From Deltaproteobacteria bacterium (GTDB lineage Bacteria > Myxococcota_A > UBA9160 > SZUA-336), in contig JAUXJB010000012.1 in NCBI GenBank assembly GCA_030624945.1, positions 1 through 15,772 on the forward strand: 15,772 nucleotides of DNA. The letters are read 5' to 3'. How positions within the stretch are numbered: the first letter of the stretch is position 1; each line of letters starts with the position of its first letter. This document shows positions 4,812 to 15,772 of the stretch, piece by piece. The notes below the pieces were generated by a model. The model searched no databases, had not been told where the DNA came from, and was given only the letters and a program-made list of their open reading frames with translations. Both the position numbers and the translations under genes were made by a program.

Positions 4812-6674
4812 GTGCCCAGGAGCATTCTCATAGCGGAAGACGATCGCGCGCTGTGCCGCTCGCTCGTCCGGACCATCGAGAAGCTCGGCTACAGCGTTCG
4901 CGGGGTGCACGACGGCAGCACGGCGCTGGAGGCCGTGGAGGAGAGCAGACCTGACCTGCTGATCCTGGACCTCCTGCTGCCCAAGGTCGATGGCCTGGGC
5001 GTCGTCCGGAAGCTGCGCATGAGAGAGAGGACCCAGGAAATTCCCGTCGTCGCCATCAGCGGCGTGTATCGCGGACCGAGTGTCGCGCGGGATCTCGAGG
5101 GAGCCGGGGTATCGGTGTTCCTCGAGAAACCGTTCTCCGCGCGCGATCTCGCGAGCCATCTGGAGACATTGCTCGGCCCTGCCGAGACGGAGGCGCCGCA
5201 GACGCAAGAGTCCGAGCGCTGCGACCTCTCTCGCAATCCCGCGCCGAAGATTCTGTGGGCGCCGATGCGCGACGGTCTCACCGGCGTGCTCCACTTCAAG
5301 CGTGGAAAGCGCCAGAAGGAGCTCCTGCTGCGGGACGGCACGCCGACCGCCGTGCGCTCGAATCTGGTCAAGGAGACGTTGAGCCGTCGGCTGTTCGACG
5401 CGGGTCACATCGATGAGCGAGCCTATCAAGAGGCACAGCGGCGGGGCCGGGCAACGGGCCAGCCGCAAGGTGCGCTGCTGGTCAAGCTGGGGGCGATCAG
5501 CCAGGCACAGATGGAGCGCGCTCTCGTCGACCAGGCGCGCGAAAAGCTGCTGGATCTCCTGTGCTGGACGGAAGGCGAGTCCGGGTTCGTGCAAAGTGCG
5601 CGGGAGGTCGATCGCGGCACCGAGCTCGAGGGCTGGAGTCCCAGACGGATGATGATCGAGGGTGCGGGCCGGATCAATCCATCGGTCCTCGAGAGCGAGC
5701 TCGCGCCCTACCGCGCATGCGAGGTGACGGTCGCTGCGGACGCCCTGGAGGGCGAGAATCTCTGCGGGGCCACCAAGGCACTGCTCGGGGCCCTGAAGCG
5801 GGAGAAGCGCGTGGAAGCACTGCTCCGGGATCACTCGGCGAGCCTCTACGCGCTGTGGCTCGTGGGCGCCCTGAGTTTCGAAGGTGCGGGATCAGAGGAC
5901 GCCAGGCCGACCCCCGCGGCGCCGACCCCCGCGGAGCCGTGCTCCGGTCCCGAGCAGCTCGAAGAGCGGAAACGGAAGCAGGCCAAGCAGAATCACTTCG
6001 AGGTGTTGGGCCTGGACCCCAAGGCCAGCGAGGCGGATGCGCGTAACGCCTTCGTCGGGCTGGCGAAGCGCTACCACCCCGACAAGGTCGGGACGTCGAG
6101 CCCCGAGATGCAGGTGCTCGCCGCGGAGGTGTTCTCTCGCATCTCCCAGGCACACGAGGTCTTGAGCAATCCCGAGCGGAGGCGTAACTACCTGAAGGAG
6201 CTCAAGAAAGGCAGCTCCGCGCGGGCGGACAAGGACAAGGTCACGCGCATCGTCTCGGCCGAGCAGCAGTTTCGGAAGGCCGAGGAGCTCGTCAAGCGGC
6301 GGCAGTATCCCGAAGCCATCGAGGCGCTCCGCTGGGCCCTCAAGCTCGACCCGGACGAGGGCGAGTTCCATGCCCTGCTCGGTTGGGCCAGCTTCCTGGC
6401 GGCACCCACGGACCTCACCATCAAGAAAGAGGCGATCGAGCACATGCAGAAGGCGACCGCCCTCGCCCCAAACTCGCCCAGTGGCTACTACTACACGGGC
6501 AAGCTCTACAAGGCTTGCGAAGACCCCGACTTGGCAGAGAAGATGTTCCGCAAGGTCCTGGAGCTCCGCCCCGAGCACACGGAGGCCAATCAGGAGCTCC
6601 GCTTGTTCCAGATGCGGCGCTCGAAGGGCGATCGAGGCGGCAAGAGCCGCTTTGGCCGAGGAACGAAGAAGTAA
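4812..6674 (+). CDS. Response regulator with DUF4388 (PATAN), DnaJ and TPR modules
   Basis: This 620-aa protein has four modules. Residues 1-120 are a CheY-like receiver with acidic pocket Glu9/Asp10/Asp11, phospho-acceptor Asp53 (LLILDLLLPK), Ser83 and Lys106 (EKPFS). Residues about 135-355 match DUF4388/PATAN (ILWAPMRDGLTGVLHF and KELLLRDGTPTAVRS, then LLVKLGAIS). After a Pro/Ala linker, residues about 392-463 form a J-domain with an intact HPD motif (RYHPDKV), which predicts stimulation of a DnaK-type chaperone. Residues about 483-600 hold TPR-like helices, followed by a basic Gly/Lys-rich tail. There is no DNA-binding domain, so it probably acts by protein-protein contact. The start is GTG at 4812, with the receiver beginning at once. 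The partner kinase is not in the window. The target of the J-domain is unknown; a role in motility or polarity is possible but unproven. Confidence 0.9.
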   Translation: MPRSILIAEDDRALCRSLVRTIEKLGYSVRGVHDGSTALEAVEESRPDLLILDLLLPKVDGLGVVRKLRMRERTQEIPVVAISGVYRGPSVARDLEGAGVSVFLEKPFSARDLASHLETLLGPAETEAPQTQESERCDLSRNPAPKILWAPMRDGLTGVLHFKRGKRQKELLLRDGTPTAVRSNLVKETLSRRLFDAGHIDERAYQEAQRRGRATGQPQGALLVKLGAISQAQMERALVDQAREKLLDLLCWTEGESGFVQSAREVDRGTELEGWSPRRMMIEGAGRINPSVLESELAPYRACEVTVAADALEGENLCGATKALLGALKREKRVEALLRDHSASLYALWLVGALSFEGAGSEDARPTPAAPTPAEPCSGPEQLEERKRKQAKQNHFEVLGLDPKASEADARNAFVGLAKRYHPDKVGTSSPEMQVLAAEVFSRISQAHEVLSNPERRRNYLKELKKGSSARADKDKVTRIVSAEQQFRKAEELVKRRQYPEAIEALRWALKLDPDEGEFHALLGWASFLAAPTDLTIKKEAIEHMQKATALAPNSPSGYYYTGKLYKACEDPDLAEKMFRKVLELRPEHTEANQELRLFQMRRSKGDRGGKSRFGRGTKK

Positions 6675-7612: not shown

Positions 7613-9145
7613 CTATCCGATGGCGTAGCCGAAGATCGCATCGAGCAGCTGCTCGCGCCGCGCTTCGCTCAGCGGGGGTTCGATCGGCAGGAGAAGTCCC
7701 GTCGCCAACGCGCTGTCGCTGCAGGGCAGGGCGGCCAGGTCTCGATCCGCTACTGGCAGGTGGAGTCTGCGCGTCTCGATCCCGCTGTCCAGGAGCAGCT
7801 TGTGCAGATCGTCTGCGCTGGTCCGGGCGAAGCGCGTGAGCCGGAGCAGGTAGGCGGAGTAGACCGACAGGGCCTGCTCCGGGGTCGACGGCACCCGAAA
7901 GGCGTCGTAGCGCACGAGCTCCGACGAGTAGGAGCTGGCCTCGGCGCGCCGCGCCGAGATCCGGTCCTCCAAGCCCGCAAGCTCTCGGAGCGCGAGCGCC
8001 GCCGCACCGTCGCCGAGTCGGAGATCCTTCACCAGCGGCCGAAAGCGCTCTGCGAGATTCTCCGGCAGCATGACGAGCCCGGCCTGGAGTCCCGTGGTCC
8101 CGCGACCGAGCGGCAGGCGGAACACGCATGTGCAGGGACCGCGTCCCAGTCTCGAGCCCGCAAAACGCGCCCCCAGGCTCTCGCCGCCGTCTTCGATCAC
8201 CTCGAGATCGTGCTCTTGGGCCAGGCCGTAGAGCCGGTCGAGCTCGGCGGGTTGGCCCAGCGCGTGCGAGATCACGAGAGCGCGGGTCTGCTTGCAGAGA
8301 GACTCGCGAGCGCGGTCCGGATCGAGCGTCAGGCGCTGGGGATCGACATCCGCGTAGACGGCTCTCGCCCCTGCCGCGGTCAGTCCTTCGACGGCGGCGG
8401 CCGACGCGAGCCCGGGAAAGATCAGCTCGTCGTCCTCGCCGAGCCCGAGGATCTCGGCGATGACGCGGAAGGCGTCAGCAGTGGAACGCAGTGCGAATAC
8501 GTGGTCAGCGCCGACATAGCTGGCAACCTCCTGCTCCAGGAGGTTCGTATCACGGCCGGGTTCGCTGCGCGTCACCACGTCTTGAAGCTCCTCTGCGGGA
8601 GTGGATCCGACCTCGAAGGGGACCCCGACGTCTTGTCCGCTGCCAGAGGGTGTCAGGCGGTCCAGATACTCCTCGACGCAGCGTACGAGCTCGTCGATCA
8701 TCTGAAGGTACACTTCGCCGACGTCGTCGTCATCATCCGGCGGGCTGATCTCGCGCGCGTGAACGTCGCGTCCGCATTGGCGTAGGGCCACGCCCGAACA
8801 GCTTTCGGAGTGGAAGAAGTCCACGGCCTCGAGCAGACCGAGTCGGCAGTTGCCCCCGATCGACAGCGGGATCTCGGTGTGGACGCCGACGGCGATTGCG
8901 AGGTCTGGACGAATCCTGTCCTCGAGCCAGCGCACGAGCTCCTCCCCGAGCTTATGTCCGCTGCGCGCGGGGATCGATGCGCGGTCGCAGATCTCCAGGA
9001 TCTCGGGGCAGAAGTCGCGCTCCTTCGCGCCTTCGATCCCGATGAAGGCCGCGATGCGGTCGCCGCGTTCGAGCAGTCGCTCCAGCATGCAGAGTGCGCG
9101 GTAGGTTCCGCCAATCAACAGAATTCTGGGTCTGGTCTGGTTCAC
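7613..9145 (-). CDS. Formyltransferase-like / DegT aminotransferase-like fusion lacking the PLP lysine
   Basis: This 510-aa protein is the last of five coupled genes; its GTG overlaps the PilZ-gene stop by 4 bp. Residues about 5-165 resemble the formyltransferase fold of ArnA/Fmt-type enzymes: a Rossmann-like start (RILLIGGTYRALCMLERLL), LAIAVGVHTEIP, and a divergent VDFFHSESCSG where the family has its Asn-His-Ser catalytic segment. Residues about 198-508 align with DegT/DnrJ/EryC1 sugar aminotransferases (YVGADHVFALRSTADA, DELIFPGLASAAAVEGL, HALGQPAELDRL, VIEDGGESLGARF with conserved Asp319). In the segment that should carry the PLP Schiff-base lysine (about residues 341-356, VFRLPLGRGTTGLQAG) there is no lysine and no histidine. 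The DegT half is therefore probably not an aminotransferase, and sugar binding or scaffolding is more likely. A role in making or attaching a flagellar glycan is inferred from neighbours. Confidence 0.75.
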   Translation of the reverse strand: MNQTRPRILLIGGTYRALCMLERLLERGDRIAAFIGIEGAKERDFCPEILEICDRASIPARSGHKLGEELVRWLEDRIRPDLAIAVGVHTEIPLSIGGNCRLGLLEAVDFFHSESCSGVALRQCGRDVHAREISPPDDDDDVGEVYLQMIDELVRCVEEYLDRLTPSGSGQDVGVPFEVGSTPAEELQDVVTRSEPGRDTNLLEQEVASYVGADHVFALRSTADAFRVIAEILGLGEDDELIFPGLASAAAVEGLTAAGARAVYADVDPQRLTLDPDRARESLCKQTRALVISHALGQPAELDRLYGLAQEHDLEVIEDGGESLGARFAGSRLGRGPCTCVFRLPLGRGTTGLQAGLVMLPENLAERFRPLVKDLRLGDGAAALALRELAGLEDRISARRAEASSYSSELVRYDAFRVPSTPEQALSVYSAYLLRLTRFARTSADDLHKLLLDSGIETRRLHLPVADRDLAALPCSDSALATGLLLPIEPPLSEARREQLLDAIFGYAIG

Positions 9146-9711
9146 GCTCGCTCTCCGCTGCGCTCCTTCCGGAGCGCTTGGGTCTGAGTTCTCAGCGCGA
9201 GCTGCACGAGGCGCTCGCGGTCGTCATCCAGTAGCTCTTCGAATGCGAAGGCCGTGTCGTCGGAGGGCCCCATGTCCTCTGGGCTTACGATCCTCGCTAC
9301 CGCTTGTATCAGCGGCAATCCCGCGTCGCCCAGGTCGAGCTGAACCTCGACGAGCGCCCTGTCCGGCAGGTCGAGGCCGAATGGCCCCCCAAAGCCCGCC
9401 GCCGACAGACAGATCTCGACGGGCGCGTTGCTCGCCAGCAGGTCGCTCTTCACGCCGTCGGCCCGGCGTATCACGTCGTCGATGCGTCGCTCGATCCGGT
9501 CGAGGCTGAGGGCGATGTGCTTCCAGAGACCCAGCGCCATGCGATGCTCGCTGGGCAGCCCGGAGCCCTCGAGCGCGCCGGGTGCGAACGCGCGAGGAAG
9601 GCAGCGCGATTGCACGCGCGCGCGCGCTGCGGGCTCATCGTCGGGATCGAGGCGGCGAAGCCCGACGCGGGCGAAGCAGCGAATCCGGAAGTACTCGCGA
9701 CGTTCGTTCAC
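9142..9711 (-). CDS. PilZ-domain protein (candidate c-di-GMP receptor)
   Basis: This 189-aa protein begins NERREYFRIRC, where Arg5 and Arg9 form the RxxxR motif that binds c-di-GMP in PilZ domains. The second motif, (D/N)xSxxG, appears at residues 101-106 as CLSAAG, so the acidic/amide position is replaced by Cys. Between the two motifs lies a helical insertion (about residues 55-90, with LSLDRIERRIDDVIRR), as seen in some two-part PilZ proteins. The start is GTG 9711, overlapping the stop of the upstream gene (GTGA); the frame is open further upstream, but that part is not PilZ-like. The stop overlaps the GTG of the next gene in the same way. In the flagellar setting it could link c-di-GMP to filament modification or motility. 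Binding is not certain because of the altered second motif. Confidence 0.75.
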   Translation of the reverse strand: MNERREYFRIRCFARVGLRRLDPDDEPAARARVQSRCLPRAFAPGALEGSGLPSEHRMALGLWKHIALSLDRIERRIDDVIRRADGVKSDLLASNAPVEICLSAAGFGGPFGLDLPDRALVEVQLDLGDAGLPLIQAVARIVSPEDMGPSDDTAFAFEELLDDDRERLVQLALRTQTQALRKERSGERA

Positions 9712-10292
9712 TGGCTTGTCCAGACGAGGAGCTCGCGAAACTGCGTGAGGGCGCGCGGGAGCGAGTAGCCCGTGCGGTCCGCCAGGCGGATCGGGTCGCC
9801 GGACTCGAGCTCCGAGAAGAGGCCCCGGACGTCCTCGAGCAGTGCGTCCTCCGCTTCCTTCCAACGACTCTCGAACTCGCTCTTCCGCTCGGGGTAGACG
9901 TCGAGAAAGCGATGGATCCCCTGCAAGAGGTTGACGAGCACCTGGAGCGCCTCGATCGTGTCCCCGAGTCGCGATCTCCCGCTCTGCTCATTCCCGGTGC
10001 GAAAATCCTGAGAGATGGAGTTGAGGACGCCTACGATTCTCGCGATCCAGTCGGCTGTCTCTGCCAGACTGTCGCCCGCGATGGTCTGCGGCGTCGCGCT
10101 CCTCACGCTTACGTTGCGCAAGCTGCCGACTTCGAAATCCTCGAGCTGCTCCTCGTCGATCGCGTGCCCGTTGACGTTCAAGGTGCGGATCTGATGCCCG
10201 GGTGCGAGCAACCTGTGAAGCAGGTCGAGCAGCTCCTTGGTCGAGAGAGGTTCGACGACTTGTCGGTTTCCGTTTATCTCGAGGTCGATCAT
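9708..10292 (-). CDS. Unrecognised 194-aa protein of the flagellar glycosylation operon
   Basis: I do not recognise this family. The first 65 residues alternate short strands and a helix (IDLEINGNR, then STKELLDLLHRLLA, IRTLNVNG, and VGSLRNVSVRS), a pattern that could be a small beta-grasp or ubiquitin-like fold. Residues about 75-194 look all-helical and acidic, with no cysteines, signal peptide or membrane segment. The ATG at 10292 overlaps the stop of the GT9 gene (ATGA) and its own stop overlaps the GTG of the PilZ gene, so it is an integral part of the operon. The context suggests a cytoplasmic accessory protein, such as an adaptor or chaperone that presents a flagellar protein to the glycosyltransferases, but the sequence alone does not show this. 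Confidence 0.75.
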   Translation of the reverse strand: MIDLEINGNRQVVEPLSTKELLDLLHRLLAPGHQIRTLNVNGHAIDEEQLEDFEVGSLRNVSVRSATPQTIAGDSLAETADWIARIVGVLNSISQDFRTGNEQSGRSRLGDTIEALQVLVNLLQGIHRFLDVYPERKSEFESRWKEAEDALLEDVRGLFSELESGDPIRLADRTGYSLPRALTQFRELLVWTSQ

Positions 10293-11935
10293 GTGGCGAG
10301 TCCTTTGCGTGTGGGATGGGGGGCGATGATGTCGCGCAGCAGAGCGGCGCGCCGACGTAGGGCGGCGTACTCGTCCGCGCTTCTCTGCGCGATCACGGGC
10401 AGGCTGGCTTCCGGAAGGCTTTCGAGGGCGGCCTCGAGGGATAGGCCGAGGGGAGCGAGCAGAGGCTCGCTGCGCGCGATGTCGTAGGTTCGCTCGTCGC
10501 ATTGCCTGAGGAGATCCCCCGCGCGCCGGGCCTCGGCCGGATCCGGCCGACCGCGAGCCAGGCGGCGAGCGGCCTCCTCGCCGCTTCGTGCCGTCTCCTC
10601 GAGGCGGTGCAATCGCTCGACGATTCCGCCGGGCAGCAGCTCGGCCCAGTGTTGTGGCGACACCCCGTAGCGTCTCTCGCCCTCGCGCCAGATTTGCTCC
10701 AGAGACAGAGGACGGCCGGCGAGGCTCTCGAGGAACACCGCCCGGTAGGCGACGGCCATCAGATCGTGGGGGCGGGGCGCGCGCCTGTGCGCGGGGAGCA
10801 GATCGAGAAGTCCGTGCTCGTCGAAGCTCGTGCGCAGCAGGTCCGCGCGCGGAAGTGCGGGCAGGGTTCCCGGGTCCTCTCCGCGCAAGATGCGAGCGAT
10901 CAGCTCGGCGAGCCAGTCCGCGGGCACGTCCTCGTGACACGCCGGAAAGCCACACTTCGCAAAATGGTGACACGGTGCGCAGCCGATGCGGGAGGAGAGG
11001 GCCCAGTGCCCCTCCGCGTAGACGGCGGTCTCCCACGGGTTCCCCAGCCCTACGAATATCGAGCAGGTGGTCGTCCCGACGGCGCCCGCGAGGTGCATCG
11101 TGCCGGTGTCGGCCGTGAGCAGCACATCGCACCGTTCGATCACTCCGGCGAGCTCCGCGATGCTGGTCTCCCCGACGAGCTCTTCGAAAGCGACCTCCGG
11201 GCAGGCGTTGCGCAGCTCGTGCGCCAGCTGCTTCTCGGCCGGCACACCGACGAGGACGGCTCGCATTTCGGGAACGAGGCGCGCGAGAGCATTCAGGCTC
11301 TCGGCGTAGCGAGAGACCGCCCACGCCTTCGTGTCGGTGCTGGCACCGAGCTGCACCGCCACGAGGGGAACGTTCGCTGGCAAGCGCTCCAGCGCGAAGG
11401 CGCGAGCGCGGGGCGGAACCTGTACGTACAGCGGTTCCCCGCACCCGATCAGACCGGCGGCGCCCAGATAGATGTCGACCAGGTTGTAGCGTGTCACCCG
11501 GCGTGCGCGAACCAGCGAGCTCATGTGCTGGAGCCAGGGATTCTCGACGCGGCGAGACCCCCGCCGGTCGAGGTCGTAGCCGACCGTGTGGTCCGCGTCG
11601 AGCAGAGAGAGCAGAACCGCCGACGTGCGTGAGTGGGTGAAGTTGAAGAGCACGTCGAAGTGGACGCGCGAGAGCTCATCGACCAGGTAGCGAACGGTTC
11701 GAAAGGCGTCGAGAAAGTTCGAATCGGGATCCACGAGCAGGCGGGCGAGCGCATCTCCGTCGATCTCGTGAATCTCGTCGACGCCCGGCAGCATCTCGGC
11801 CGCTTCGCGAAAACGCGTCTTCACGATCAGATGAATCTCCGCGTCGGGGTGTCGCTTTCGCAGACCGGCGAGCACAGGCGTGGTCTGAATCAAATCTCCA
11901 AAGCGGGTGAGGTTCAGTATCCCTATGCGCTTCAC
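10289..11935 (-). CDS. GT9-family (heptosyltransferase-like) glycosyltransferase with C-terminal extension
   Basis: This is a GT-B glycosyltransferase of family 9 (ADP-heptose:LPS heptosyltransferase-like), 548 aa. The N-terminal domain has the GDLIQTTPVLAGLRKRHP motif (residues 13-30). The C-terminal nucleotide-sugar domain has QLGASTDTKAW (195-205), LLTADTGTMHLAGAVG (272-287), and a Cys-rich tail segment with Cys319, Cys322, Cys328 and Cys333 often seen in this family. About 190 residues beyond the usual end form a helical, Arg/Glu/Leu-rich extension without a recognised domain. The start is GTG 11935, overlapping the stop of the CgeB-like gene by 4 bp, and the stop overlaps the next ATG. 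In this setting it more likely modifies a flagellar protein than LPS core, although the acceptor and sugar donor cannot be read from the sequence. Confidence 0.88.
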   Translation of the reverse strand: MKRIGILNLTRFGDLIQTTPVLAGLRKRHPDAEIHLIVKTRFREAAEMLPGVDEIHEIDGDALARLLVDPDSNFLDAFRTVRYLVDELSRVHFDVLFNFTHSRTSAVLLSLLDADHTVGYDLDRRGSRRVENPWLQHMSSLVRARRVTRYNLVDIYLGAAGLIGCGEPLYVQVPPRARAFALERLPANVPLVAVQLGASTDTKAWAVSRYAESLNALARLVPEMRAVLVGVPAEKQLAHELRNACPEVAFEELVGETSIAELAGVIERCDVLLTADTGTMHLAGAVGTTTCSIFVGLGNPWETAVYAEGHWALSSRIGCAPCHHFAKCGFPACHEDVPADWLAELIARILRGEDPGTLPALPRADLLRTSFDEHGLLDLLPAHRRAPRPHDLMAVAYRAVFLESLAGRPLSLEQIWREGERRYGVSPQHWAELLPGGIVERLHRLEETARSGEEAARRLARGRPDPAEARRAGDLLRQCDERTYDIARSEPLLAPLGLSLEAALESLPEASLPVIAQRSADEYAALRRRAALLRDIIAPHPTRKGLAT

Positions 11936-13761
11936 GCCGGGTCCCCTGCCTCGTTCAGGACGGTGATCTCACTGCGCGCTTCGCGCATGAGCAGGAGCAG
12001 CTTCTCGTCGCGTGTGAGCGGCCCGTCTCCCGAGCCGACCGCCAGCGAGATCGCATCGCCGTCGAGTACGCGATCGGCGTCGACGCGCGTGAGTATCTCT
12101 CGCAGTCCGGGCTCGTCCTCGCTGGCTTCCAGTACCGATCCCACGCTCGGGAGAACGTTTCGCCGCGGGATCAGCGGGACCGGGCCCGCGGACAGGGCCT
12201 CTATCGCGCTCTCCATGCGGTGGCGGTACGTGTGCTCCGAGAGAGCGCGGCGATGCGCCGCTGCTGCGATCTCGCTCCGTTCGTCGGGATGGTCGAGGTA
12301 GTAGCGAAGCTTCTCGCGGCACTCGTCGATGTCGGCGAACGTCTCGAGCTCGGTTCCGATCTCGAAGAAGCGCGACAGATCGCGACGCTCGTCCACGAGC
12401 TGGAAGCAGCGCGCTCCGGCCAGCTCGAAGGTGCGCGGGTTGACGAAGTCGCCCACCGGGTTGATCCCGTCGCACCACGGTGAGGAGTGGAGGTTCAGGT
12501 TGATGCGGCTGGCGTTGAAGATCCGATTCGCATCCGCGCTGGATTGTCTGATGTTGGGCTCGGGCATTGCGGTGGAGAAGGGCGCTGTGAGTGGCCACTC
12601 CGTTCCGTACACGCGCAGGCCCATGGAGAAGAGAGCCGGTAGAAACTGGCTGCGATTGTGGTAGCCGGCGCCGAGGAAAGATACGTCGCACTCGTATCTG
12701 CGGCGCTCTTCCGATGAGAGCTCGATCGGGCGGTGCAGATCGGGATCGAAGCCCATCGGAAGCGGGACGCCGTAGGCTCCTGCCTCGCGCAGAGGCCCCG
12801 CGAAGTCGTCCGGCTGGATGTGGAAGATCGTGTCGTACGACCGCGCCAGATCCGACCAGTAGCGCATCACGCGGAAGTCCTCGCAGAACCACAGTGCGCG
12901 CGTGACCCCGAGCTGTCCCAGGCGATCGAGCGTCTGCGGATCGAGAGGCGCGCCGGCGACCGCGAAGATCAGATCGGGCGGGTCGAGCTCGAAGCGACCG
13001 AGCAGCATCTCCCCGATCACGCGACCCAGCCCATCTCGCAGCGATTCGGAGAGCGGCGCGAGTCGCCCGTCCTGCGCCGTCCGGAAGATCTCCTGGAACG
13101 CGGGCCAGAATGCCGAGAGGTCGATCTCGCGCACGCGATGTCCCAGTGCGGTGAGCGCGCGCGCGCTGGCCTCCGCGACCGGGACCGCGCCTCCGTAGAG
13201 CGGTGGGATCACGGCCACGTCGAGCGGCGAGGGCGTTCCGCCGGGATGGAAGCGTTCCGCCAGTGCATCGTGGAGCGCGCGGGCCCGATGCCGCGCGGAG
13301 GGATGCGCCAGCAGGAGTCCGCGCTCGCGGGCCGTGAAGATCGGGTGACGAAGCGCCTCGGCGAGGTCCTCTCCCACGACGAGCTGGATCCGCGCAAGTG
13401 CCTGCGAGAGGTCCACGCGTTCCAACACGGCCCGAGCCAATCCGATCGATGGTTCGATCACGAGCAGTTGGCCGTCGAAATCGCTCAGGAAGCGCAGGGT
13501 GTGTACACCCATGCCGAAGAGGACCAGGCGCCTCGCCGCCGCCTCGTGTGCGCGCTCCGCGAAGTACTGCGCGAGCTCTCGGGCTTCCTGCTCAGGATCC
13601 TCCGCACTCGTTTCTTGCACGCCGCCTACCCGGATCGATAGCGCTCCGCTCCGCGCGGTAAGGGTCTCGATGTCGGAGTCGGTCGAAGCTCGACGGATGC
13701 GCTCCACGAGCGCGGGATGGGTACGACCAAGCGCTTCGAGGTTTGCTGCTAGTGGCTCCAT
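11932..13761 (-). CDS. Maf-like N-terminal region fused to a CgeB-type glycosyltransferase
   Basis: This 609-aa protein is the first gene of the operon. Residues about 5-175 resemble the N-terminal part of motility-associated-factor (Maf) flagellin glycosyltransferases: a Leu-rich opening (NLEALGRTHPALVERI), a VLFGMGVHTLRFL turn, LLVIEPSIGLARAVLERVDLS and LVVGEDLAEAL. Residues about 183-540 match the CgeB/DUF3880-type GT-B transferase: VAVIPPLYGG, RALWFCEDFRVMRYW, YDTIFHIQPDD, PMGFDPDLHRP, DVSFLGAGYHNR, and the donor-site region NPRTFELAGARCFQLVDERRDL with LSEHTYRHRMESAIE. A 70-residue tail follows. Two adjacent start codons exist, GTG 13764 and ATG 13761; I chose the ATG. GGAAGGTG lies immediately before it, close for a ribosome binding site. 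A sigma-54-type promoter is centred about 40 bp upstream. It probably glycosylates flagellin or another filament protein; this is inference from the Maf-like part and the neighbours. Confidence 0.82.
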   Translation of the reverse strand: MEPLAANLEALGRTHPALVERIRRASTDSDIETLTARSGALSIRVGGVQETSAEDPEQEARELAQYFAERAHEAAARRLVLFGMGVHTLRFLSDFDGQLLVIEPSIGLARAVLERVDLSQALARIQLVVGEDLAEALRHPIFTARERGLLLAHPSARHRARALHDALAERFHPGGTPSPLDVAVIPPLYGGAVPVAEASARALTALGHRVREIDLSAFWPAFQEIFRTAQDGRLAPLSESLRDGLGRVIGEMLLGRFELDPPDLIFAVAGAPLDPQTLDRLGQLGVTRALWFCEDFRVMRYWSDLARSYDTIFHIQPDDFAGPLREAGAYGVPLPMGFDPDLHRPIELSSEERRRYECDVSFLGAGYHNRSQFLPALFSMGLRVYGTEWPLTAPFSTAMPEPNIRQSSADANRIFNASRINLNLHSSPWCDGINPVGDFVNPRTFELAGARCFQLVDERRDLSRFFEIGTELETFADIDECREKLRYYLDHPDERSEIAAAAHRRALSEHTYRHRMESAIEALSAGPVPLIPRRNVLPSVGSVLEASEDEPGLREILTRVDADRVLDGDAISLAVGSGDGPLTRDEKLLLLMREARSEITVLNEAGDPA

Positions 13762-13790: not shown

Positions 13791-13807
13791 AGCAAGCCGC
13801 GTGCCCA
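13791..13807 (-). promoter_or_regulatory. Sigma-54 (RpoN) promoter of the five-gene operon
   Basis: On the minus strand the sequence reads GGGCACG-CGGC-TTGCT, against the consensus TGGCACG-N4-TTGCT: only the first base differs. The invariant -24 GG (13805-13804) and -12 GC (13793-13792) are separated by exactly 10 bases. The predicted transcription start is near 13780, giving a short leader of about 20 bases before the ATG at 13761. Sigma-54 control of mid and late flagellar genes is known in several proteobacteria, so the site fits the context. No activator-binding site could be recognised with confidence. Confidence 0.75.
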
Positions 13808-13870
13808 CGCTATCCGAAGTCGAGCACCGACGCTGCAGCGCATCCGCGCCGCGGGATAGGCAAGAATTGC

Positions 13871-13912
13871 CCGGGGGGGAAAGCGGAGAGCGACCCTTGA
13901 GTTGCTCTCCGC
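13871..13912 (-). terminator. Terminator-like hairpin after the fliT-like gene
   Basis: An inverted repeat with perfect 9-base arms (13883-13891 and 13904-13912) and a 12-base loop lies in the gap. On the minus strand it is followed by TTTCCCCCCC, a T/C-rich run rather than a clean U-tract. It could end the fliD-fliS-fliT transcript before the sigma-54 promoter of the next unit. Termination may be partial. Confidence 0.5.
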
Positions 13913-13942: not shown

Positions 13943-13966
13943 CCGCTAGGACTGCCCGCTAGGACT
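13943..13966. repeat. 11-bp tandem direct repeat at the fliT-like stop codon
   Basis: CCGCTAGGACT occurs at 13943-13953 and again at 13956-13966, separated by GC (period 13). The second copy overlaps the TAG stop of the fliT-like gene. It looks like a small local duplication with no obvious function. Confidence 0.6.
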
Positions 13967-14297
13967 AGACAGACTTCGAGATGAAGGCCGGACGGTTTGG
14001 GAGTGTCGGCTTGTAGCCGTCGACAGCCGTACGCGACTTCCGGAGCTCCTCGATGTGGATGCGTAGCTCTTCGCGCAGGTTCTGGATCATCTCCGCCAGA
14101 GACTCTTCCGCTCGGGCGAGCCGCTCGGAGAGCTCCTGAGAGATCGGTTCGCTGGGCGGATCCTCCTCGAGCGAACGCATGAGCTCGGTTCGGGTAGCCC
14201 GGGCGCGATCGAGTGCCTCCAGCCGCTCGTTCTTCGTTTCGCGAAGCGCAGCTTCGGTGGCCTCCAACCAGCTGGCGAGGCGCGGATCGTCACTCAC
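13965..14297 (-). CDS. FliT-like flagellar chaperone (probable)
   Basis: This 110-aa protein is entirely helical and charged, with a probable coiled-coil region at about residues 50-90 (QELSERLARAEESLAEMIQ). It ends in a segment (LRKSRTAVDGYKP... RPAFISKSV) that resembles the C-terminal tail of FliT-type proteins, where a helix is followed by a Gly-Tyr turn and a short hydrophobic end. FliT proteins bind the cap protein FliD and keep it unassembled in the cytoplasm before export. The main support is position: it directly follows fliD and fliS, as in the common fliD-fliS-fliT order. The GTG start at 14297 overlaps the fliS stop by 8 bp and is preceded by GGGGAGT. FliT sequences diverge strongly, so a different small flagellar chaperone (for example FlgN-like) cannot be excluded. 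Confidence 0.65.
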   Translation of the reverse strand: MSDDPRLASWLEATEAALRETKNERLEALDRARATRTELMRSLEEDPPSEPISQELSERLARAEESLAEMIQNLREELRIHIEELRKSRTAVDGYKPTLPNRPAFISKSV

Positions 14298-14685
14298 TCC
14301 CCGACTCCGGCCGGTGCGAATCCGCCAGCTCGCGCCAGGCAGACTCGAGGGTCTCCATCACGGGAATCACGGCATCGAGAGAGCTGCGGTCCCCGTCGAC
14401 GTTTGCCCGGATCACGCCCTCCAGCACGAACTGGTAGAGGCTCTCGAGATTGGTGGCGATGGGGCCCCCTCGCGCGTGATCCAGCGCCGAGAGAAGCTCC
14501 GACACGATGGCATGCGTGCGTCCCAGTGCATGCCCTCGGACCGCGGGCTCGTCGAAGCTCGCCTGCGCCTGTCTGCCGAAGCGAACGGCTCCTTCGTACA
14601 GGAGCAGGACGATGCGTACCGGATTGGCAGAGCCTACCTGGCCCTGCTGGTACGCGAGGTGAGCGTGATGTGCGCCGAACTGCAT
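14290..14685 (-). CDS. fliS: Flagellar export chaperone FliS
   Basis: FliS is the cytoplasmic chaperone that binds the C-terminal helix of flagellin, prevents early polymerisation and delivers it to the flagellar export gate. The 131-aa length is normal. Family landmarks are AYQQGQV near residue 11, NPVRIVLLLYEGAVRF (21-36), a central helix with AIVSELLSALD, the IATNLESLYQFV segment (about 76-87), and VIPVMETLESAWREL near the C-terminus. The ATG at 14685 has a strong ribosome binding site, AGGAGAGG at 14700-14693, with a 7-base spacer. It lies 28 bp after fliD and overlaps the fliT-like gene by 8 bp. Flagellin itself is not in the window. Confidence 0.94.
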   Translation of the reverse strand: MQFGAHHAHLAYQQGQVGSANPVRIVLLLYEGAVRFGRQAQASFDEPAVRGHALGRTHAIVSELLSALDHARGGPIATNLESLYQFVLEGVIRANVDGDRSSLDAVIPVMETLESAWRELADSHRPESGSE

Positions 14686-14713: not shown

Positions 14714-15772
14714 CTAGCGTAGTGACTGCAGCAGGAACTGGGACAGGAACTCGCCCTGTTGCTGGATTCCCGCGATCGTTCGCTCCAGCGCTGCGAACTG
14801 CAGCACCAGGTTCTCCTCGATGGTCACGAGTCGATCTTCCGCGTCGCTGATGCTCTGCGAAAGATTGGAAATCGTCTCGGTCGTGCCGTTGATCCGAGCC
14901 ACCAGCGCGCCGTCGACGGTGTCGGTGTAGGTATCGGCGATATCGCGCAGCTGATCGGCGAAGGATCCCGCACCGGCGAAGAAGCTCGCAACACCCTCGA
15001 AGTCCGAAGCCAGCGCGGCGTCCAGCTCGTCCTCGTCGAGCTGCAGCTTTCCGTCGCGGTCGAGCTCGAGTCCAATCTGTATGGCCGAGGTGATGCTGCC
15101 GGAGCCGATCGCACTGGCGACCACCATCGCGAGCCGCTGCTGGAGCCCCACAAGCGTTCTGTCCCCGATCAGCGGTCCGCCTCGGCTCGTCGTCGGGTCC
15201 ACCACTGCCTGCTGCGCGATGACATCAACCACGTCGTTGTAGAGCGAGACCAGCTCCACTATCGCATCTGCAACCTCATCGGGCGCCGGCTCGACCTCGA
15301 TCGTGATCGGGGTCGCGCTCACCTTCTCGACCTGCAGGGTGAGACCTCGCAGGAACTCGCTGAATGTGTTGGTGGAGCTCTCGATGGTGAGTGGGGCAGC
15401 GGAGCCCGGATCGAGGATGATCTCCGCATTGACGGCGGTCTGAGTCTCGGTGAATGCGAGTGCGGACTCCCCTCCAGCGAGGCCAGTCGCGTCGAGATCC
15501 AGGATGAAGTCCTTACCGGTGGTGTTTCCGACGATGACGATCTTGAACGGGTTGCCCGCTCCTCCATCATCGACGACAAAGGCGGTGACTCCCGCGTTGG
15601 CGCTGTTGACGGCCTCGACGAAGCCATCCACTGTTTCGTTGGAGCTGTCGATCGTGATGTCTGTGGGAGGGTCGGTGCCGACCGTGATCGAGAATGTGCC
15701 CGTGCCGACACTCGCGGTCCTCGCGGAGTAGCCGTTCGAGATCTCCCGCTCCTGAGCGGCGAGCTGCTGGAC
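14714..15772 (-). CDS. fliD: Flagellar filament cap protein FliD (C-terminal part; 5' end outside window)
   Basis: FliD (HAP2) forms the cap at the filament tip and drives flagellin polymerisation outside the cell. The visible 352 residues run open to the window edge, so the N-terminus is missing; the first in-frame Met inside the window is not the true start. At the edge the frame shows VQQLAAQERE, then VGTGTFSITVG, part of the cap-protein N-terminal region. A flagellin-hook-IN-like motif follows (TVDGFVEAVNSANAGVTAFVV, through NPFKIVIVG). The C-terminal region has LRGLTLQVEKVS, IVELVSLYNDVVDVI, LIGDRTLVGLQQRL, ELDRDGKLQLDEDEL and a coiled-coil end (ISNLSQSISDAEDRL to LSQFLLQSLR), as usual for FliD. 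It is followed after 28 bp by fliS. Confidence 0.93.
   Translation of the reverse strand, partial: VQQLAAQEREISNGYSARTASVGTGTFSITVGTDPPTDITIDSSNETVDGFVEAVNSANAGVTAFVVDDGGAGNPFKIVIVGNTTGKDFILDLDATGLAGGESALAFTETQTAVNAEIILDPGSAAPLTIESSTNTFSEFLRGLTLQVEKVSATPITIEVEPAPDEVADAIVELVSLYNDVVDVIAQQAVVDPTTSRGGPLIGDRTLVGLQQRLAMVVASAIGSGSITSAIQIGLELDRDGKLQLDEDELDAALASDFEGVASFFAGAGSFADQLRDIADTYTDTVDGALVARINGTTETISNLSQSISDAEDRLVTIEENLVLQFAALERTIAGIQQQGEFLSQFLLQSLR

Follow-up and report, generated by a model that had tools for sequence, protein, structure and literature searches.

A candidate sigma54-controlled flagellar operon with a Maf–CgeB hybrid glycosyltransferase, and an adjoining putative pseudoenzyme of wider distribution, in a deltaproteobacterial draft genome

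Background

Do five overlapping genes that follow fliD, fliS and fliT in a deltaproteobacterial draft genome form a single flagellar glycosylation unit, or do they only share an address? The genes, which we call A to E, occupy positions 7613–13761 on the minus strand of the stretch analysed here (the window: 15,772 nucleotides of contig JAUXJB010000012.1, part of G000:C288 in a 1.78-Mb draft genome that is 73% complete). An original prediction, made from the sequence alone, had described them as a fully coupled operon for flagellar glycosylation linked to cyclic di-GMP (c-di-GMP). We find that A, B, C and D are tied to the flagellum in the window's family (f1, 11 genomes), that A joins two domains which point to an unusual hybrid transferase, and that E is kept both with and without flagella. 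The reading we prefer, with moderate confidence, is that of a late flagellar operon under sigma54 control whose products glycosylate a filament protein via a Maf–CgeB hybrid, with E as a conserved pseudoenzyme of wider role.

Results

The gene order fliD-fliS-fliT-A-B-C-D-E is common to the window and to G008, G010, G002 and G003, which represent four further genera of the family (in G003 a contig end cuts E, whose last 101 positions lie on another contig). FliS was matched in exactly five of the 11 f1 genomes—those with A–D—and flagellin in the same five plus G001; in G002, G003 and G008, flagellin lies upstream of fliS on the same contig. Searches with A, B, C, D and the MptE-like/MAF_flag10 domain PF01973 each covered 147 genomes, including the window's own (G000). 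The five FliS-bearing f1 genomes yielded A at near full length; five further genomes matched it partially, mainly through the CgeB half. B was near full length in the same five, with one weak partial match in G042 (residues 3–355); C was strong in these five and weak (E-value 2e-5 to 8e-4) in eight class relatives; and D was found in the five, with weaker matches in 14 other genomes. None of these searches found full-length A, B, C or D in the remaining six f1 genomes. A–D follow the flagellum in f1, and the co-occurrence with flagellar loci that had been proposed for all five genes stands for these four, which accompany fliD-fliS-fliT in all five FliS-bearing genomes of the family and in none of the other six.

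The unit adjoins fliD-fliS-fliT as predicted, with a 203-bp gap carrying a sigma54-type site between fliT and A in the window. Sites were searched for with the sigma54 consensus TGGCAC-N5-TTGCW, and one lies 29–40 bp before A in all five fliT–A gaps, with one mismatch in four of them and two in G010; of 3000 shuffles, those reaching the site numbered 3 for the window, 10 for G008, 7 for G003, 47 for G010 and 11 for G002. In the window, the core GGCAC-N5-TTGC has a single occurrence, a pattern match at 13792–13805 on the minus strand (at least one occurrence was seen in 18 of 200 window shuffles). Across nine f1 loci (147 kb) it turns up nine times, where 1.1 would be expected: five times before A, twice directly before E (G005 and G006) and once inside D of G008. 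The remaining core belongs to G004, a genome without a FliS or flagellin match, where it stands some 90 bp ahead of a Gfo/Idh-like gene in the neighbourhood of E (L055 2179, plus strand). A GGCA-N5-TGCC palindrome precedes the sigma54-type site, exact in four of the five gaps and not found in G010; in the window this candidate activator site (GGCAATTCTTGCC, 13859–13871, minus) was reached by 0 of 200 shuffles, and we take it to resemble the ftr sites of Caulobacter FlbD. A sigma28 promoter was also considered and rejected, as the pattern TAAA-N15-GCCGATAA, allowing up to four mismatches, was found in none of the five gaps.

Protein A (11932–13761, minus; 609 aa) had been called a Maf-like/CgeB transferase. 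Its C-terminal part bears this out, with DUF3880 at residues 291–367 (39.7 bits) and PF13524 at residues 373–519 (118.2 bits), both over the Pfam cut-off, a pair that we take as the mark of CgeB. Residues 3–162 (approximate domain limits) resemble the N-termini of Maf proteins of class relatives, both by hhalign (probability 98.6, E-value 5.5e-16, from an input of seven rows comprising six Maf sequences, two of them identical, and one mispicked frame, L107) and by BLAST (32% over 171 residues, E-value 1.4e-10 in a small set). The Pfam family PF20157 was reached neither by this N-terminus nor by those of three orthologues; among three class-relative Mafs scanned, all had PF01973 and two had sub-cut-off PF20157. 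The Maf likeness ends there—PF01973 was not found in A by Pfam and had no match in any of the 11 f1 genomes, and for this reason an ordinary Maf was rejected. The same domain was matched in 27 of the 147 genomes, in 26 of them over cut-off. Judged by its domain content, A is a hybrid of a Maf-type N-terminal domain and a CgeB-type glycosyltransferase. Downstream, B (10289–11935, minus; 548 aa) matches PF01075 over residues 84–324 with 82.1 bits against a cut-off of 22 and carries a C-terminal extension of about 220 residues; by this match it is a GT9 (heptosyltransferase-family) glycosyltransferase, as proposed.

C and D form a recurring pair of a different kind. The predicted model of C (9708–10292, minus; 194 aa) has a predicted local distance difference test (pLDDT) score of 93.7 and consists of a beta-grasp followed by a bundle of four long helices; its best Protein Data Bank (PDB) fold match is ThiS (3cwi, E-value 7e-3), none being found at or below 0.001. 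PF26154 is listed on relatives of C, and Pfam and PDB sequence searches with C and D yielded nothing; a genome_contigs scan with C recovered just two loci. For D alone (9142–9711, minus; 189 aa) no Pfam match is listed at E<10, and PF16823 gave no match in the window's D and sub-cut-off matches in two of ten relatives scanned. The assignment as a PilZ protein nevertheless held up: one of three f1 orthologues scanned (in L019) is over the PilZ cut-off, and the seven best PDB fold matches are chains of 3ph1/3rqa (XC6012), a PilZ protein, with template-modelling (TM) scores of 0.42–0.49 and root-mean-square deviations (rmsd) of 7.9–9.5 Å in Foldseek (for the four best, E-values of 3e-4 to 1e-3, TM 0.43–0.49 and rmsd about 8 Å). 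The model (mean pLDDT 81) places helices at 26–34 and 54–84 after a strand at 10–20, and D is, by closest fold, an atypical, tetrameric-PilZ (tPilZ)/XC6012-like protein with a predicted helical insertion.

The link to c-di-GMP is unproven, because D keeps the RxxxR motif yet is without the D/N of D/NxSxxG, so that any such control would be read from half a motif. R5 and R9 are present in 20 of 21 aligned sequences, the remaining one being without that part, whereas position 101, the D/N position, is C in 11, T in five, S in four and R in one, hence D/N in 0 of 21 (the D alignment omits P0038 of 21 relatives and that of C omits P0008 and P0018 of 18). G288, where the order is fliD, fliS, C, D, has a D with a longer N-terminus and the full motif pair, RREYLR and DISGAG. 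We take Xanthomonas flgZ and XC6012 to be orthologues. For XC6012, only SxxG is described and c-di-GMP binding was not reliably obtained, according to the part of that source available (PMC3131395).

A widened C profile matches 30 of 377 phylum genomes. The stretches around these matches, six of which span just 3.4–9.9 kb, contain fliS or fliD in 16 cases and a D-like PilZ gene in 20, within 1.5 kb in 18; excluding the five f1 genomes, the counts are 11, 15 and 13 of 25. Only the fliS/fliD and D counts of this survey are used, since its Maf/pse labels are unsafe for f1, G185 and G273, where the queries are hit by A and E themselves or by a single weak stretch. Four of the 30 matches may be false: those of G219 and G185 fall inside an epimerase-like open reading frame (ORF), and in G326 and G273 no fliS, fliD or D was found in the C stretches. 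C and D are probably an older flagellar pair. In L080 (G034), a frame that by eye resembles a NeuB/PseI-type synthase adjoins C and D.

E (7613–9145, minus; 510 aa) behaves differently from A–D. Its profile, built from 121 sequences (alignment A3: the window's protein plus 120 listed of 164 proteins found, drawn from the 8000 best candidates), matches nine of the 11 f1 genomes; E was not found in G001, and the matches in G007 and G083 cover the DegT part only. In G004, G005, G006 and G009, E adjoins the run ilvE–response-regulator gene–mtnA–asmA, as in the window. These four genomes are 91–97% complete and have no FliS and no flagellin match, and no fliD, fliS, fliT or A–D match was found within 12–20 kb around E. 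The idea of E as a flagellar gene was rejected on these grounds, and the view of all five genes as one flagellar unit survives for A–D and fails for E. G008 reads Gfo/Idh–ispG–acetyltransferase–flagellin–fliD-fliS-fliT-A-B-C-D-E–ilvE and G009 reads Gfo/Idh–ispG–E–ilvE; the flagellar block between ispG and E would thus have been gained or lost as one piece, with E independent of it. The best sigma54-type site before E was reached by 1 of 2000 shuffles in G006, 9 in G005, 149 in G009 and 1486 in G004, the last two not being significant.

By sequence, both halves of E descend from or resemble enzymes, and from each half a catalytic residue is missing, in keeping with the degenerate formyltransferase/DegT fusion first proposed. 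The DegT half matches PF01041, and residues 198–496 align with WbpE at an E-value of about 1e-25 (phmmer); at the motif, the intact row of that alignment has S-K-P-L-G and E has L-P-L-G. The WbpE lysine falls opposite residue 344, which is L in 74 sequences, M in 19, V in 16, F in eight, T in two and A and I in one each, with K in 0 of 121; a lysine stands elsewhere in residues 338–362 in five of the 121. The N-terminal half (residues 5–116) shows moderate homology to formyltransferases, with an hhalign probability of 85.6% and an E-value of 5.6e-6 (the first 40 of the 121 E sequences against four motif-bearing ORFs chosen from 11 loci), against 0.3% for C and 0.1% for D as controls. The formyltransferase catalytic motif is N-x-H-P-S, and it is present in the formyltransferases of relatives used for the comparison. 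The catalytic His was not found in E, H occurring in at most eight of 121 sequences at any position from 95 to 125. In the alignment, E106 and V108 pair with the formyltransferase N and H; inspection by eye allows another pairing, in which the invariant N99-C-R101 would be N-x-H with the Asn kept and the His replaced by Arg. Many invariant residues of its own—including R27, G36, C53, R61, K65, G67, E68 and E69, and further R72, W73, D76, R79, P80, G98, N99 and R101—show this half to be under strong selection. E looks like a double pseudoenzyme.

The layout of the window qualifies one further claim. All four junctions (A/B, B/C, C/D and D/E) are 4-bp overlaps, GTGA, ATGA, GTGA and GTGA, just as described; that they imply fixed stoichiometry was not borne out. 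Overlaps of the same length also occur on the plus strand, at two of its five same-strand junctions (gatC/gatA and asmA/mtnA), so they are not distinctive for A–E and are a local gene-packing style of the window. Spacing also varies among relatives, with D/E at −4 in the window, G010 and G002, −1 in G003 and +25 bp in G008, and A/B at −1 in G010. Upstream on the minus strand lie a fliT-like gene (13965–14297; PF05400 at 18.3 bits, below the cut-off of 29.5, and position), fliS (14290–14685; PF02561 and TIGR00208, both over cut-off) and fliD (14714–15772, truncated by the window end; PF07195 over cut-off). A 9-bp inverted repeat followed by TTT (13883–13912, minus; by eye) is a possible terminator of fliD-fliS-fliT. 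The plus strand carries gatC-gatA-asmA-mtnA-response regulator/DnaJ-ilvE, the names gatC, gatA, asmA and mtnA having been assigned by eye without family search. The response-regulator gene (4812–6674, plus) encodes a 620-aa protein joining receiver, DUF4388, DnaJ and TPR domains, and adjoins ilvE in other f1 genomes as well.

Two further loci deserve mention. The G008 acetyltransferase between ispG and flagellin is of GNAT type (L016 1839–2756, minus), with relatives in L018 and L019 and none found in the four E loci that lack flagellar genes, and a flagellar sugar could be its substrate. In G090, the stretch L161 may be another PilZ-plus-CgeB flagellar locus: fliD and fliS are matched there, a PilZ protein of 288 aa and an ORF of 1585 aa that is CgeB-like in part lie in the same stretch, and further ORFs resemble, by eye, flagellin and csrA.

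Discussion

From gene order, presence patterns, domain make-up, promoter-like sites and the missing lysine and histidine, all obtained by computation, we infer what follows on glycosylation, on its substrate and sugar, on which transferase acts first, on how old the parts are and on any effect of c-di-GMP. A-B-C-D would be a late flagellar transcription unit under its own sigma54-type promoter. A would add the first sugar to a protein of the filament, with flagellin or FliD the likeliest, and perhaps do so while the FliS and FliT chaperones hold it, and B would extend the glycan that A had started. C and D would act on the same complex of chaperone, substrate and transferase, and A–B would stand in for the pse genes and Maf of related families. 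E, at the operon end yet separate, would serve as a binding protein or scaffold in a sugar pathway that cells without flagella need too.

Several observations weigh against this reading. The G010 site is the weakest of the five (two mismatches, 47 of 3000 shuffles), the fold match of D is weak, with TM under 0.5, and the operon contains no dedicated sugar-synthesis gene. G000, G002 and G003 are just 73–75% complete, and G001, which has flagellin and no A–D match, is only 58% complete, so its absence says little. Maf_N–CgeB hybrids also occur in two f17 genomes, G219 (Pfam and BLAST) and G185 (BLAST only), at L154 9879–11678 (minus) and L157 6726–8561 (plus), Pfam having been applied to L154 only. 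They adjoin an epimerase-like ORF (named by eye), and queries for fliS, fliD and fliT found no match near them within 20 and 15.5 kb; the hybrid architecture is for that reason no proof of a flagellar substrate.

Among the alternatives, the one we take most seriously, as a tentative possibility below even odds, holds that C–D is a c-di-GMP-independent export or chaperone module unrelated to glycosylation, with A–B merely lying between fliT and C. C and D stand beside fliS with no Maf/pse match in the stretch in G288, G292, G274 and G313, and in Xanthomonas oryzae a non-canonical PilZ gene, flgZ, follows fliD, fliS and fliTX and is co-transcribed with fliS and fliTX, no sugar gene being among the five genes named in the available part of that source (PMC5550985). 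Elsewhere, however, C keeps company with glycosylation genes—in class relatives G046 and G048 a C homologue lies between Maf and fliD, in a stretch that also holds fliS, pseB, pseC and a GH57-like gene, and C shares a stretch with Maf or pse genes in G011, G014, G015, G022, G053 and G061.

A bolder version of the flagellar reading strikes us as rather doubtful. There, the catalytic half of Maf would have been swapped for a CgeB GT-B domain to give a new class of flagellin O-glycosyltransferase, a half-motif PilZ in a C–D gate would read c-di-GMP or a partner, and a sigma54-controlled, two-headed pseudoenzyme E would bind a sugar nucleotide, set the glycan supply and be kept for a second surface structure where flagella are missing.

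It is unlikely, in our view, that A and B serve to build or modify a surface polysaccharide or lipopolysaccharide (LPS) and sit in a flagellar neighbourhood by regulation or chance only. GT9 is the LPS heptosyltransferase family, the best NCBIfam matches of B are LPS heptosyltransferases, all below cut-off, and the f17 hybrids of L154 and L157 have no fliS, fliD or fliT match nearby. Yet B reaches just 81 bits against the 185 demanded by the LPS equivalog, full-length A and B are present in the five FliS-bearing f1 genomes and in none of the six others, and the unit comes after fliT in five of five. That A–E are one glycosylation machine, with E supplying or sensing the donor sugar for A and B, is improbable. 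In its favour, D and E overlap in the window and in G010, G002 and G003, and the domains of E come from or look like enzymes acting on sugar nucleotides or in formyl transfer. Against it, E persists in G004, G005, G006 and G009 without a FliS or flagellin match, preceded by its own sigma54-type site, which few shuffles match in two of the four genomes (1 and 9 of 2000), and it lacks both the catalytic Lys and His.

If the preferred reading of a late flagellar glycosylation operon is true, the Maf N-terminal domain can recombine with an unrelated transferase, the hybrid would point out the portion of Maf that recognises the flagellar substrate, and flagellin glycosylation would have a second catalyst in nature. 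An uncharacterised flagellar protein, C, and an atypical PilZ would be a recurring pair at fliS/fliD across the phylum, and E, found with and without flagella, would offer a testable case of sugar enzymes turned binding proteins. No description of the A–E combination was found in the literature searched, most subscription papers lying outside its coverage.

Several parts of the locus have known counterparts. E resembles DegT/DnrJ/EryC1/StrS aminotransferases such as WbpE and perosamine synthetase over residues 198–496, and departs from them at the lysine position, where L, M, V, F, T, A or I stands in 121 of 121 sequences. B shares PF01075, over cut-off, with GT9 heptosyltransferases and differs from them in falling below every listed NCBIfam cut-off and in its roughly 220 extra C-terminal residues. 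The available part of one source describes Aeromonas maf-1 with pse genes as a Maf-type flagellin glycosylation locus (PMC7874193). Like Maf loci, the one described here has a Maf-type N-terminal domain, in A, and like the Maf/pse loci of class relatives it sits with fliS/fliD; unlike them, it has a CgeB-type domain instead of PF01973 and an operon without pse genes. D matches tetrameric PilZ XC6012 as its best, though weak, PDB fold (TM under 0.5), but keeps the RxxxR that is said to be incomplete in XC6012 in the part of the source available (PMC3131395). The closest parallel in gene order is the Xanthomonas run of fliD, fliS, fliTX and flgZ, as far as the available part of its description goes: in both, an atypical PilZ gene lies downstream of fliD-fliS-fliT, whereas here D is separated from fliT by two transferase genes and C.

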